From an uncultured Pelagibacteraceae bacterium (lineage in GTDB: Bacteria > Pseudomonadota > Alphaproteobacteria > Pelagibacterales > Pelagibacteraceae), in contig CACLMD010000005.1 of the NCBI GenBank assembly GCA_902607945.1, forward strand, positions 1 to 46,320: a DNA stretch of 46,320 nucleotides. The letters are read 5' to 3'. Every line of letters starts with the position of its first letter. Position 1 is the stretch's first letter. Both the position numbers and the translations under genes were made by a program. The notes beneath the pieces were generated by a model. That model was not told the DNA's origin, ran no database searches, and saw only the letters and a program-made list of their open reading frames with translations. Below, piece by piece: positions 8,628 through 39,201 of the stretch.

Positions 8628-9656
8628 ATGAAAAAAATATCAATATTTGCATTAATAATGACTTTATGTGTGTCTGCTATCGCAGTTGCAAATGAAGTGA
8701 ATATTTTTAATGCAAGACACTATAAAGCAGATTCTGAGCTTTATTCGAAGTTTACAAGTATGACTGGAATTAAAGTTAACCTGATAAATGGAAAATCTGG
8801 TGCTTTAGAAAAAAGAATAATTGAAGAGGGTGCAGATTCTTCTGCAGATCTTTACATCACTGCTGACGCCGGAAGATGTGGTGCTATGGATGCAAAAGGT
8901 CATCTTCAAAGTGGTTTATCATCTAAAGCTATAAAAGCTGCTGTTCCAAAAAGTTTTAGAACAAGTAAATGGGTTGGAATAGCAAAAAGAGCTAGAATAA
9001 TTTATTATTCACCTGAAAGAGTAACTGGTGCTGAACTATCTGGAATGACTTACGAAGGTCTAGCTGATCCTAAATGGAAAGGAAGATTAGTAATAAGAAA
9101 ATCTAGCAACATATATAATAAATCTCTTGTAGCTTCATTAATCGAAAATAATGGAAAAAAAGCTACAGCTGAATGGGCAAAAGGGGTTGTTGCAAATATG
9201 GCTAGAGACTCTAAAGGAAATGATAGAGCTCAAATTATGGCAGTAGCTGCTGGAGAAGCTGATATTGCTGTGGCAAACACTTATTATTTAGCTTTAATGT
9301 TATCTGGTAAAAAAGGTGCAGAACAACAAGAAGCTGCTAAAAAAGTTAAAGCTTTTTTCCCTAATCAGAACGATAGAGGAACGCATATGAATGTTAGCTG
9401 TGCTGCTTTAGTAAAAGGTGCACCTAACAAAGCTAATGCCGTTAAACTTGTAGAGTTTTTATTAACTCCACAATCTCAAGAGCACTTTACAAACAATACT
9501 TTTGAGTTTCCAATGATTGATGGTGTTTCACCAAGTCCATTAGTAGTGAATAACTTAGGATTAGATTTCAAACAAGATATGAATACTAAGTTAGCTTCTT
9601 ATGGAAAAAATCAAGCTGCTGCATTAGAAGCAATGACAGCTGCAGGTTGGAAGTAA
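8628..9656 (+). CDS. futA: Iron(III) ABC transporter, periplasmic substrate-binding protein
   Basis: This 342-residue protein has a signal peptide (about residues 1-21, ending AIAVA) and the start of mature ferric-binding proteins (NEVNIFNARHYKADSELYSKFT). It also has the tyrosine-rich NTYYLALML segment near residue 220 that supplies iron ligands in FbpA/FutA proteins. It captures ferric iron for the FutB/FutC membrane complex encoded downstream. It is the first gene of the operon behind the Fur-like dyads. Family members differ in whether they bind free or chelated iron, which is not decidable here. Confidence 0.92.
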   Translation: MKKISIFALIMTLCVSAIAVANEVNIFNARHYKADSELYSKFTSMTGIKVNLINGKSGALEKRIIEEGADSSADLYITADAGRCGAMDAKGHLQSGLSSKAIKAAVPKSFRTSKWVGIAKRARIIYYSPERVTGAELSGMTYEGLADPKWKGRLVIRKSSNIYNKSLVASLIENNGKKATAEWAKGVVANMARDSKGNDRAQIMAVAAGEADIAVANTYYLALMLSGKKGAEQQEAAKKVKAFFPNQNDRGTHMNVSCAALVKGAPNKANAVKLVEFLLTPQSQEHFTNNTFEFPMIDGVSPSPLVVNNLGLDFKQDMNTKLASYGKNQAAALEAMTAAGWK

Positions 9657-9663
9657 TAGAAAC

Positions 9664-9858
9664 ATGAAAAAGAATTTATTTGCTTTTGATTTTAACAATT
9701 CTTCTAGTTCGAGTGGCTCATATAGTAGTCAGGAAACATGTGAACCATGCTCATTAGAAGTTGAAAGAATTAAAAAAAAAATAAATAAAAGAAAATTATC
9801 TGAAATTAAAGATGATGATATTGATCATGTCATAAACGTTTTTGGTATTAAAAGATAA
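9664..9858 (+). CDS. Small Ser-rich CxxC protein inside the iron-transport operon
   Basis: This is a 64-residue open frame starting 7 bases after the futA stop. I do not recognise it. It begins MKKNLFAFDF, then has a run of serines and glycine (NNSSSSSGSYSS), a CEPC (C-x2-C) motif at residues about 26-29, and a charged, probably helical C-terminus (VERIKKKINKRKLSEIKDDD). There is no clear signal peptide or membrane segment. Position between the binding protein and permease genes suggests iron-regulated expression. The CxxC could bind a metal or form a disulfide. Function unknown. Confidence 0.65.
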   Translation: MKKNLFAFDFNNSSSSSGSYSSQETCEPCSLEVERIKKKINKRKLSEIKDDDIDHVINVFGIKR

Positions 9859-9870
9859 TTTTTAAAAAAA

Positions 9871-9934
9871 GTGAACATAATCTAATAGTTTTACCCTCTA
9901 TTAATTATGTTCACTTAAAGTTAAAAGGGTAAAA
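9871..9934 (+). promoter_or_regulatory. Hairpin with loop complementary to the futB Shine-Dalgarno (candidate pseudoknot)
   Basis: Positions 9871-9888 and 9898-9914 form a 17-bp stem with one bulged C at 9882. The 9-nt loop, TTTTACCCT (9889-9897), is perfectly complementary to AGGGTAAAA (9926-9934), which contains the only Shine-Dalgarno-like sequence of futB and ends directly at its ATG (9935). The linker is 11 nt. Loop pairing would block ribosome binding. No U-tract follows the stem, so it does not look like a terminator. If the long stem stays fully closed, the 11-nt linker may be too short for full loop pairing, so partial opening or a two-state switch is more likely. Confidence 0.6.
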
Positions 9935-11563
9935 ATGTTTTTAAAAAAAATTAATTTATGGAACTCTAGTTCGTTTTGTATTTCAGTAATTGTTCTAATA
10001 CCAATTTTAACCGTCTTTGCTAGTTTTTTTGAAGATACTTCTAATTATTATCAAATCTTAAAAGATACATTTTTATTTGAATATATTTTCAATTCACTAA
10101 CTTTATTAATTTGTGTTTTAGTTTTAACCTTTATATTTGGAACCACTACTGCATATCTAGTTTCCTTTTATACATTTCCACTCAGTAATTTTTTCAAATG
10201 GGCCTTGATATTATCTTTTGCAGTACCCCCTTATATTTATGCATATTCATTGACTGCTTTTTTTGAAAATTATGGAACTTTATTTACAATTTTAAAAAAT
10301 CTGTTTGGAGAAGCAAATTATAATCAAAATATTCCAAAATTTGATGGTTTATTTGGAGCTGTGATTTCTCTTTCTTTTTCTTTATTTGCTTATGTATATA
10401 TTCTTGCTAGAGCATCATTTCTTTATCAATCTCAAAATTTAATTGATTTAGGAAGAAGTCTAGGATTTTCTAAATTGAAATCTTTACATTCTTTATTGTT
10501 ACCAGCAGCGCGTCCAGCGATTGTAACAGGTTTATCTCTTGTTGCGATGGAAACCTTGGCAGAATTTGGAGCTGTAGATTTTTTTTCTATTAATACTTTG
10601 ACTACAGGAATTTATAATTCATGGATAACATTCGATGATTTAGCATTCTCTAATAGAATATCCTTTTTTCTTCTAATTTTTATATTCTCATTGTTTATTT
10701 TAGAGAATTTATCTAGAAAAAAAGCAAAATATCATTCTAACACAAGAGGCGGTATTAAACAGAAGGTGAAAATCCAGCTTTTGGGTATCAAAGCATTTTC
10801 AGCATTTATGATTTGTTTTTTTATTTTCTTTTTGAGTTTTTTATTTCCATTAAGTCAAATGTTATATTGGACACTAAAATTTCCTGAAAATTTTTTTGAT
10901 CTTCAAATATTTACTTTAACTATAAATACAATCTATTTAGTATCATTATCAAGTTTAGTTTTGATAATTCTTTCTTTAATTTCAAACTATGGAAATAGAG
11001 TTTCAAAAAATAAAACCTTAAATCTTTTATCTACTTTATCCATTTCCGGTTATGCTATTCCAGGTATAATTTTAGCTTTAGCATTTATAACTTTTGTGGC
11101 ATGGTTTGATGATAATATTGTTAAAGCATTAGGTTTTTTATCAATCAAAAAATTTTTTATTGGTTCAGTTTTTGGTCTTGTTTTAGTTTATTTTGTAAGA
11201 TTTTACTCTTTGTCTTTTAATGGAATAAAATCTGGATATGAAAAAATCAACATATCAGTTGATGAAAGTTCTTACCTACTTGGTTATTCAAAAAAAAAGA
11301 CATTTATGAATATCCACATACCTTTTTTGAAAAATTCTCTTTTATTTGTCGCTATCCTTATTTCTTTAGAAATAATAAGAGAATTACCAATTACATTAAT
11401 TTTAAGACCTTTTAATTTTGAAACTTTTGCTACAACTGCATATATATCTGCTTCAGAGGACTTATTAGAGGCTGCTGCAGTACCTTCATTGTTTTTAATA
11501 TTAATTGCTTCTTTATTTATTATAATTAGTTCAAAATATATTTTAAGAGAAAACAATGAATAA
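9935..11563 (+). CDS. futB: Iron(III) ABC transporter permease (two fused permease domains)
   Basis: This 542-residue protein has about twelve membrane segments and two binding-protein-dependent transport domains. Each half carries a cytoplasmic coupling loop: GRSLGFSKLKSLHSLLLPAA near residue 170, and the SSYLLGYSKKKTFMNIHIPF region near residue 450. This is the typical FutB/FbpB/AfuB architecture. It is separated from the 64-residue gene by a 76-bp gap holding the hairpin, and its final ATGAATAA overlaps the ATPase gene by 8 bases. Confidence 0.92.
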   Translation: MFLKKINLWNSSSFCISVIVLIPILTVFASFFEDTSNYYQILKDTFLFEYIFNSLTLLICVLVLTFIFGTTTAYLVSFYTFPLSNFFKWALILSFAVPPYIYAYSLTAFFENYGTLFTILKNLFGEANYNQNIPKFDGLFGAVISLSFSLFAYVYILARASFLYQSQNLIDLGRSLGFSKLKSLHSLLLPAARPAIVTGLSLVAMETLAEFGAVDFFSINTLTTGIYNSWITFDDLAFSNRISFFLLIFIFSLFILENLSRKKAKYHSNTRGGIKQKVKIQLLGIKAFSAFMICFFIFFLSFLFPLSQMLYWTLKFPENFFDLQIFTLTINTIYLVSLSSLVLIILSLISNYGNRVSKNKTLNLLSTLSISGYAIPGIILALAFITFVAWFDDNIVKALGFLSIKKFFIGSVFGLVLVYFVRFYSLSFNGIKSGYEKINISVDESSYLLGYSKKKTFMNIHIPFLKNSLLFVAILISLEIIRELPITLILRPFNFETFATTAYISASEDLLEAAAVPSLFLILIASLFIIISSKYILRENNE

Positions 11564-12617
11564 TAATTTTTTTGAAGTTAAAAATGTTGATTTTAAAGCC
11601 GGAGGTAAAACTAAAGTTTCAAATGTATCTTTTGCTATTGAAAAGGAGGGTGATATTATATGTCTTTTAGGCCCATCAGGTATTGGTAAAACTACAATAT
11701 TAAGAACAATCGCAGGTTTAGAAAAAATTAACAATGGATCAATAGCATTAAAGGGAAAAATATTATCTTCAGAAAAAGAAAACATCGAACCTGAGCACAG
11801 AAATATATCTCTTGCTTTCCAAGAAAATAGTTTATTTCCACATTACACTGTGAAAAAAAATATACTATTAGGTGCAGATAGAAATAAAGATAAAAAAAAT
11901 CATCAAGTTAGTTTTCAAGAAATTGTCAAATTATTAGATATTTCTTTTATATTAAATAAATACCCACATGAAATTAGTGCTGGAGAAGCTCAAAGAGCCT
12001 CACTTGCAAGATCTCTTATTTCTCAGCCTGATTTATTGTTGTTAGATGAACCATTATCAAATGTTGATCAAAGTTTTAAGGAAGAGATTCAAGAAAAATT
12101 AAAAAAAATATTAAAAAGTTCAAAGATTACCACAATAATTGTAACGCATGATTCTTATGAAGCTTTTTATTTAGGGTCAAAATGTGGAATAATTTTAAAT
12201 CAAGAGCTAAAACAATTTGATGATCCATATAATGTTTATCATTTACCAAATTCGGTTGAAGTAGTTAATTTTTTGAATAGAGGTACTCTTATTCCTGCAG
12301 AAGTGACAAGTCCTAAAAGTTTAGAAAATAAAGATCTTGGAACAATTACGGGTAATTTTATAAAACAATTTCCAATAGGATCAAAAGTTAAGCTTTTAGT
12401 ACAACCAGAGGATCTACACCACGATGACAAAAGTAATTTAAAATTTGAGGTTATAGATAGAAAATTCAGAGGTACTAATTTTATTTACACCCTTAAAACT
12501 CCGAATAACATGCTAATACCAGTTTTTGTTCATTCACATCATATTCATCAACATGAGGTAGATGAAAAATTTGGAATTAAAAGACCAATTCATATTGATC
12601 ATATAGTTTGCTTCTAA
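11556..12617 (+). CDS. futC: Iron(III) ABC transporter ATP-binding protein
   Basis: This 353-residue ATPase energises ferric iron import. It has Walker A GPSGIGKTT (about residues 38-46), a Q-loop (LAFQENSLFP), a divergent signature SAGEAQRASLARSL in place of LSGGQ, and Walker B LLLLDEPLSNVD. A C-terminal TOBE-like regulatory domain (about 230-353) is present. The ATG sits in an 8-base overlap with futB (ATGAATAA), which implies coupled translation. The altered signature (SAGEA) is also found in other members of this family and need not mean inactivity. Confidence 0.9.
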   Translation: MNNNFFEVKNVDFKAGGKTKVSNVSFAIEKEGDIICLLGPSGIGKTTILRTIAGLEKINNGSIALKGKILSSEKENIEPEHRNISLAFQENSLFPHYTVKKNILLGADRNKDKKNHQVSFQEIVKLLDISFILNKYPHEISAGEAQRASLARSLISQPDLLLLDEPLSNVDQSFKEEIQEKLKKILKSSKITTIIVTHDSYEAFYLGSKCGIILNQELKQFDDPYNVYHLPNSVEVVNFLNRGTLIPAEVTSPKSLENKDLGTITGNFIKQFPIGSKVKLLVQPEDLHHDDKSNLKFEVIDRKFRGTNFIYTLKTPNNMLIPVFVHSHHIHQHEVDEKFGIKRPIHIDHIVCF

Positions 12618-39175: not shown

Positions 39176-39201
39176 AAAAGGCCCTTAATTAAGGGCCTTT
39201 T
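39176..39201. terminator. Bidirectional terminator between amtB and the glycosyltransferase gene
   Basis: A perfect 26-bp palindrome made of AAAAGGCCCTTAA and its reverse complement, flanked by A-runs and T-runs, so it works for both convergent transcripts. Its last bases touch the stop codon of the minus-strand gene. Confidence 0.85.

Follow-up and report, generated by a model that had tools for sequence, protein, structure and literature searches.

A divergent potC-type RNA hairpin whose loop may pair with the futB start in a Pelagibacteraceae iron-transport operon

The fut operon of an uncultured Pelagibacteraceae bacterium carries a long hairpin just before the permease gene futB, and the entire loop of this hairpin is complementary to the futB start region. 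On balance, and with modest confidence, we interpret the element as a divergent cis-acting RNA of the potC type whose loop, where futB is near, pairs with the futB start in an H-type pseudoknot that closes the start. The loop probably base-pairs with the futB start because relatives change both sides together. Computation establishes the conserved position of the hairpin, covariation in its stem helix (S1) and at one pair of the loop–start helix (S2), the near-fixed spacing and the restriction of the complement to loci where futB is near. The window is the whole 46,320-nucleotide stretch of DNA that was analysed, and its relevant features are collected in Table 1.

Table 1. Elements of the fut locus in the window
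Feature	Positions	Strand	Basis
futA (sfuC), Fe(III)-type substrate-binding protein, operon's first gene	8628..9656	+	ORF; Pfam SBP_bac_8 2e-16, SBP_bac_6 8e-16
smORF, 64 aa, CxxC, between futA and hairpin	9664..9858	+	ORF, conserved family
Whole potC-like RNA, model R1 match	9865..9920	+	40.5 bits, E 4.1e-8; next best in window 15.0 bits
Hairpin stem S1, 5′ arm	9869..9888	+	One bulged C; folding, stem covariation
Apical loop TTTTACCCT, potC-like UUUACCC motif; proposed S2 5′ strand	9889..9897	+	Folding, covariation
Hairpin stem S1, 3′ arm	9898..9916	+	Folding, stem covariation
Linker L3, hairpin to GGG, 10 nt	9917..9926	+	Spacing in relatives; A-form distance estimate
AGGGTAAAA, futB Shine-Dalgarno region; proposed S2 3′ strand	9926..9934	+	Exact loop complement; covariation
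futB, permease	9935..11563	+	ORF; BPD_transp_1 1e-8
futC, ATPase	11556..12617	+	ORF; ABC_tran 2e-30

The hairpin and its operon

An earlier note on this DNA had described a bulged stem of 17 bp. That stem is borne out from position 9871, and the full hairpin (9869-9916) reaches 19 bp when the outer AA/TT is included, with one bulged C and a 9-nt loop. The 11-nt linker of the same note agrees with the 17-bp count; counted from the 19-bp stem, 9 nt separate the hairpin from AGGG. Its observation that the loop matches the futB Shine-Dalgarno at all nine positions is likewise correct, since AGGGTAAAA is the exact reverse complement of the loop and lies directly 5′ of the futB ATG. The 67-nt stretch holding the hairpin has a folding z-score of -4.6, and none of 200 shuffles was equally stable. 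Within the 46 kb, both strands included, AGGGTAAAA occurs twice, as the loop and as the start site (1.15 occurrences are expected from shuffles); by our own arithmetic, the chance of one falling within 60 nt downstream of the loop is roughly 7e-4. A scan for strong hairpins found 22 on the plus strand and 10 on the minus strand of the window, and because it allowed one mismatch and no bulge it missed the window hairpin itself on the plus strand. When the minus-strand image of the window hairpin is left out, two of the remaining 31 had a 7-nt complement of their loop within 60 nt; a complement of at least 8 nt occurred in none. The stem is followed by AAAGTTAAAAGGG and lacks the 3′ U-tract of an intrinsic terminator. 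Elsewhere in the window, at 39176-39201, a perfect inverted repeat with overlapping arms, AAAAGGCCCTTAATTAAGGGCCTTTT, is typical of a bidirectional terminator.

The futA protein matched no NCBIfam equivalog above its cutoff, and its putative assignment to iron rests on synteny and on the available text of PMC2864753. Inside the futA–futB gap lies a small ORF (smORF) that the earlier note had overlooked; its stop codon is 10 nt upstream of the hairpin. The smORF product has no Pfam family above cutoff and no NCBIfam match, and its AlphaFold model (pLDDT 70, two helices) is uninformative. It belongs to a family of 55-64 aa proteins with a CxxC motif (often CxxCxxxC) and a conserved INxRxLSxI...VF tail, whose genes occupy the futA–futB gap in most of the Pelagibacter loci read. 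The family profile matches 65 of 147 genomes of the order, 61 of these in Pelagibacter's genus. No smORF match at E up to 1 was found in G007, G012, G076, G082, G108 or G064, genomes with completeness of 99-100% (G012, G082) or 76-79% (the other four). We rejected the smORF product as an obligatory partner of the hairpin, as the smORF-less G007, G012, G076, G082 and G108 keep a futA–futB hairpin. In a set of smORF-less loci (L106, L118, L120, L122, L361), AGAGG precedes the hairpin and the futB AUG follows it by 5-10 nt, an arrangement in which the hairpin might place a remote Shine-Dalgarno next to the start codon.

Position among relatives and kinship with potC RNA

A FutB search of 201 genomes of the genus matched 142, of which 12 were left out as fragments without the N-terminus or as weak matches. 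Among the 130 loci taken, 129 have futA (L068 is without), and a hairpin was called in 127 of these; the script left L101 and L127 uncalled though a stem is visible. The hairpin starts 8-26 nt after the stop codon of the smORF (or of futA) in 126 of the 127 loci, and the exception, L100 at -1, seems to be a fold extended too far. Between hairpin and futB the distance ranges from 5 to 708 nt, and in 17 loci an extra gene lies between the two. This inserted gene belongs to the Redoxin family by Pfam in the L014 type and has no Pfam match in the shorter L060; the other inserted peroxiredoxin-like genes were named by likeness, and the inserted start of L059, a locus without a UUACC loop, is probably miscalled. 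Peroxiredoxin-like inserts are found in scattered lineages (L013, L014, L031, L058-L060, L064, L067, L116, L117, L119, L129), and L059 and L060 have two hairpins in tandem after the smORF.

The hairpin goes with the upstream stop codon, and futB is not the only reason why its loop is kept, because with a gene inserted the hairpin stays behind the smORF and the UUACC-type loop is retained in 12 of 17 loci. The start of the inserted gene holds the complement in none of these 12 and in none of the 5 loci with other loops. As loops are kept before a peroxiredoxin gene that lacks the complement, the UUACC loop has a further or an earlier role. Pairing with futB does not extend to every locus, and because UUACC loops persist independently of futB, a pseudoknot cannot be the hairpin's only or original role.

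The slot is more conserved than its content. A T-rich tail (at least 7 T in 9 nt) follows the hairpin in 25 of 127 loci, none of them with a futB complement; because these loci of other types carry a terminator-like tail, the function of the slot may differ from lineage to lineage. In distant Pelagibacteraceae (L261, L269-L271, L281, L284-L286, L289, L291, L295, L296, L306) an unrelated hairpin, TC(T/C)CTGG...CCAG(A/G)GA, sits 16 nt after the smORF stop, so that the slot is kept and the sequence is not. Loci without a hairpin are L236, L359 and L363, of which L236 keeps a GGGTAAA site. Two apical-loop words were considered as elements used genome-wide and rejected, no family of copies being present: GGATNTTTACCCTTTCC occurs once in 11 of 121 genomes, nine of these at the fut locus by coordinates, and AAGNTGTCTCCTT once in 13 of 121, nine at fut.

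The earlier note knew of no described element of this kind. That view no longer stands, since the hairpin is a divergent relative of potC RNA, matched at E 4e-8. The match was obtained with R1, a covariance model built from 13 potC-like relatives, none of them in the window's own group; among its members L104 scores below the Rfam cutoff and L027, L119, L248 and L254 carry no cmscan score. The potC RNA family is known from positions before transporter or peroxiredoxin genes, and the same genomic slot is found here, where futB or a Redoxin-family gene comes next. Against the Rfam model itself (RF01751), the window locus (L001) scored 32.9 bits (E 0.0033 in a 21-kb search) and did not reach the gathering score of 44. 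A permissive Rfam scan of nine fut loci placed potC RNA in five: L014 (92.2 bits), L031 (76.7), L116 (50.8), L104 (34.2) and L001; relatives above the cutoff score 48-94 bits. In a 20-locus scan potC RNA appeared in 10, nine above the cutoff, and the window locus was absent from the list. Across the genus, RF01751 matched 45 of 399 genomes at one site each, 41 of them above the cutoff, and none of 14 control genomes; the window's own genome is absent among the 45.

We take the window hairpin to be a divergent potC RNA homologue that falls below the Rfam cutoff and does without the inner UCUCC bulge. Both the inner UCUCC internal loop and the UAGGA/UCCUA upper stem of the potC consensus are absent from it. 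Against 48 loci, R1 gave matches up to E 1 for about half, which take in the greater part of the window's group and, at weak scores, some lineages beyond it; no such match is listed for L008, L057, L062, L102, L118, L121, L122, L251 and L255, among others. Because R1 misses distant lineages, it is position and loop, rather than model score, that connect their hairpins with the rest. Known riboswitches and other Rfam families were rejected: the window matched none at gathering score, riboswitch models included, and at E up to 1 no riboswitch model matched any of the nine fut loci. Also rejected as a match were the less-supported motifs of Meyer et al. 2009, as they lie at other loci in the available text (PMC2704228). 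The potC table entry of Weinberg et al. 2010 (PMC2864571) is 'y, y, ?, marine only', and on our reading the first columns stand for RNA, cis-regulatory and switch. No description of the loop–futB pairing or of a potC RNA mechanism was found in the literature searched, most subscription papers lying outside that search.

Pairing of the loop with the futB start

Where futB is the next gene, its start holds GGGTAA in 20 and GGATAA in one (L121) of 31 loci with UUACC-type loops, as against 0 of 79 loci with other loops. Distance sorts the UUACC loci further: of 22 with the hairpin 5-26 nt from the start codon, 21 have the complement (the exception is L096), and of nine with the hairpin at least 31 nt away, none has it. 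A second set (L228-L307), which partly repeats the first and in which the hairpin caller is unreliable for distant lineages, gave GGGTAA at futB in 14 of 18 loci with a UUACC hairpin and in 1 of 62 without. The one is L236, which has lost its hairpin; among the 14, L237 has an inserted gene in between. Near-identical loci are not independent, so these presence counts overstate the evidence.

Most relatives that have the complement show a distance of 7-12 nt from the hairpin to GGG. Relative to the start codon, GGG stands either at -7 to -10 or, within AUGGGUAA, at +2, and the spacing to the hairpin is alike in both cases. The exceptions are 16 nt in L046 and L056 (L046 has a second copy at 10 nt, and its extra GGG copy is at -16 from the start codon), 6 nt in L230, whose stem was called longer, and, where the site is double (L106/L234), 0 and 10 nt. 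Neither L233 nor L236 entered the spacing list with a true hairpin call. The spacing of GGG thus follows the hairpin and not the start codon. The earlier note placed the loop complement at the futB Shine-Dalgarno, where it lies in the window; in one lineage the proposed pairing covers the AUG instead.

Covariation strongly supports the S1 helix. Both partners have changed at 12 of the 17 pairs, including 9 of the 11 that form the outer helix, and 91.2% of cells are paired against 28-49% in slid controls, in a test of 22 of 31 unique sequences chosen as alignable, with L046, L056, L106 and six of the L118 type left out. The S2 helix is supported by covariation at one variable pair, with exceptions. 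Because the sequences were chosen for GGGTAA and TTACC, only the free pair (loop NTTACCC, start GGGTAAN′) is a fair test, and it was scored on anchored 7-mers since the MAFFT alignment misplaced the loop column. By majority it is T-A, A-T or C-G, changing in step, in 9 of 9 lineages of our own assignment (permutation p 0.002); merging lineages with a common sequence gives 6 of 6 (p 0.017). T-A is found in most of the window's group and in L104, L106, L248 and L254; A-T in L046/L056/L057/L062, in L247/L251/L255 and in L118/L120/L121/L229-L231; and C-G in L232 and L233. In L233 the match is extended to 11 bp, TACTTACCCTT with AAGGGTAAGTA. As scored, 26 of 31 unique sequences are Watson-Crick, a count of 27 if L046, scored at its overlapping copy, is read at the other copy, where the pair is A-T. 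The nearly complete genome G384 (99%) has a T-G wobble, the expected intermediate.

Exceptions at the free pair are A-A in L008, L012, L202, L310-L312 and L315 (L312 and L012 are the same genome). Mismatches elsewhere in S2 are G-G in L235, which also has a T-G wobble, and C-A in L121. The extra locus set was read for 8 of 30 loci under a strict pattern. Six of the seven S2 pairs hardly vary, and about three independent switches occurred at the seventh. The earlier note had named the lack of covariation between loop and Shine-Dalgarno as grounds for abandoning its proposal; covariation was found, with one pair in three Watson-Crick forms and a nearly fixed spacing. Its cis-acting pseudoknot at futB gains from both, and it is restricted by the UUACC loops that persist beside genes without the complement.

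Chance resemblance of a conserved pyrimidine loop to a G-rich Shine-Dalgarno can be weighed by comparing each lineage's own next-gene start region with swapped ones. Over 29 lineages assigned by hand, own pairs were better (p 0.005). The advantage is driven by the UUACC lineages (p 0.007 when limited to 30 nt, 0.08 for the full 12); it is absent from lineages with other loops (p 0.65). With a 14-nt loop window the corresponding values are 0.023 for the 29 lineages, 0.014 for UUACC within 30 nt, 0.30 for the 12 UUACC lineages and 0.53 for the others. Complementarity in the UCUCC-type lineages was rejected: their futB starts, such as AAGTCGGA (L095) and AAAGCGGA (L049, L115), are unmatched by loop changes, and swapped loop–start pairs are as good as own pairs. 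Many lineages without UUACC loops (e.g. L089, L102, L023) have a conserved palindrome near ATTATAAGGCGGATTATAAT that holds the futB Shine-Dalgarno in a hairpin loop, and GCGGA recurs in many futA leaders of genomes with a ATTATAAGGCGGATTATAAT-like palindrome.

In the window the proposed pseudoknot would combine an S1 of 19 bp, an S2 of 7-9 bp and a linker of about 10 nt. We infer that the pairing forms in the cell and represses the futB start, and it would be limited to this lineage and several others with futB within about 26 nt. Ribosomes ending at the stop of the smORF (or futA), 8-26 nt upstream, could open the foot of the hairpin. Synthesis of permease and ATPase would hinge on how much the binding-protein portion of the message is translated, and would remain lower. 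The straight-line A-form distance across S1 is 35-50 Å for 14-20 bp, and in this model a linker of about 10 nt can feasibly span it. L009, with a 7-nt linker on a 20-bp stem, would be borderline: 50 Å is needed against a reach that we put at about 48-52 Å at 6-6.5 Å per step, and the stem foot may therefore have to open there, which comes near the earlier suggestion that the two pairings may compete.

The alternative that we take most seriously, while considering it rather unlikely, is that the hairpin is mainly a stabiliser, a processing site or a weak attenuator following the abundant message for the binding protein, with a pyrimidine loop that binds a protein or RNA in trans and a futB match that is secondary or incidental. 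The hairpin does track the upstream stop while its distance to futB varies, UUACC loops are kept before peroxiredoxin genes without a partner, and terminator-like tails occur at other loci. Iron-starved transcripts of HTCC1062 drop along the operon, with array increases of 16.0 fold for sfuC, 10.4 for sfuB and 5.0 for sfuA in the available text of PMC2864753. Such a role leaves unexplained the in-step switching, the near-fixed spacing and the confinement of the complement to loci near futB, and no U-tract follows the window hairpin.

It is quite improbable, in our judgement, that the loop pairs mainly with the 5′ leader of futA instead, which would join the two ends of the binding-protein message and make the futB match a second target or relic. 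Leaders were readable in 124 of 127 loci. GGGTAA stands upstream of futA's own Shine-Dalgarno, usually as AGGGTAAAG some 20 nt from the futA ATG, in 12 of 42 leaders of UUACC-type loci as against 2 of the 82 others. Both the loop TTAGCCTGA and the leader TCAGGCTAG of G012 (L122) have changed from UUUACCC/GGGUAAA and still match over 8-9 nt (-13.3 kcal/mol), which suggests a long-range pairing of loop and 5′ leader; L122 is, however, a single genome on a long branch of a quick tree. The window's own futA leader has no GGGTAA site, L003 (GGGTAG) and L005 (AAGGTAAA) of its group have no more than near matches, and the base of the leader that faces the variable loop position does not track the loop (A in L118, L120 and L232). 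Given the leader GGGTAA sites, futB appears not to be the sole candidate partner of the loop. A speculative synthesis, which we consider unlikely, would make one loop a portable anti-start element for both the futA leader and the futB start, with potC-type RNA balancing binding protein against permease and lineages rewiring it by compensatory change, from Shine-Dalgarno to AUG, with spacing kept. Chance alone, for which one may cite the general affinity of pyrimidine loops for Shine-Dalgarno sequences and the lineages with other loops that do no better than swapped pairs, is very improbable in view of the own-over-swapped advantage, the in-step S2 switching and the contrast of 21 of 31 with 0 of 79.

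Iron response and comparison with known RNAs

The cultured strain HTCC1062 appears to carry the hairpin element. G408 is taken to be HTCC1062 by coordinates, because its FutA gene (1180955-1181968, minus strand) adjoins the intergenic region 1181972-1182071 listed by sfuC in the accessible part of PMC2704228. Its loop is AATTACCC, its futB start AUGGGUAAU and its futA leader AAGGGTAAA; the set that includes G408 comprises 13 genomes, eight of them without a FutA match, and L360 was unreadable. Under iron limitation SfuC protein of HTCC1062 rises 27 fold, and SfuC has been proposed as a marker of iron limitation (PMC2864753). The transcript and protein figures fit a separation of binding protein from transporter and do not single out the pseudoknot. 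If the proposal is true, the transcript level of sfuC is not necessarily a guide to transport capacity, since permease synthesis would be controlled independently on the shared message. For potC RNA the analysis provides a host group with an operon and a neighbouring small protein, together with a pairing that can be tested; the host, Pelagibacter, is very abundant in the ocean.

The riboswitches SAM-II, SAM-V and preQ1 are H-type pseudoknots in which a hairpin loop pairs with a downstream Shine-Dalgarno and closes the start. The window loop is likewise complementary to a downstream Shine-Dalgarno region, but its S1 is far longer, it is intercistronic rather than in a 5′ leader, and it has no sign of a ligand pocket. 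The pseudoknot of ColIb-P9 repZ, the work of Asano and Mizobuchi in 1998, reportedly favours translation, is tied to a short upstream ORF and is controlled by antisense RNA. Pairing of a loop with a downstream site near a start, together with a short upstream ORF, is proposed here as well, whereas the effect here would be repression and no antisense RNA is known. In icaR of S. aureus, a C-rich element behind the gene is said to pair with the Shine-Dalgarno region. This likeness, a C-rich element behind a gene, is relevant only to the futA-leader alternative, and the window differs in having no corresponding leader site. The 5′–3′ UTR pairing of icaR appears in the available text of PMC3868564. 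The closest comparison is with potC RNA itself, which shares the operon slot, the stem foot and the UUUACCC loop with the window hairpin; the latter is shorter, is without the inner UCUCC bulge, stands before futB rather than prx, and has a Shine-Dalgarno complement that is not part of the Rfam model.
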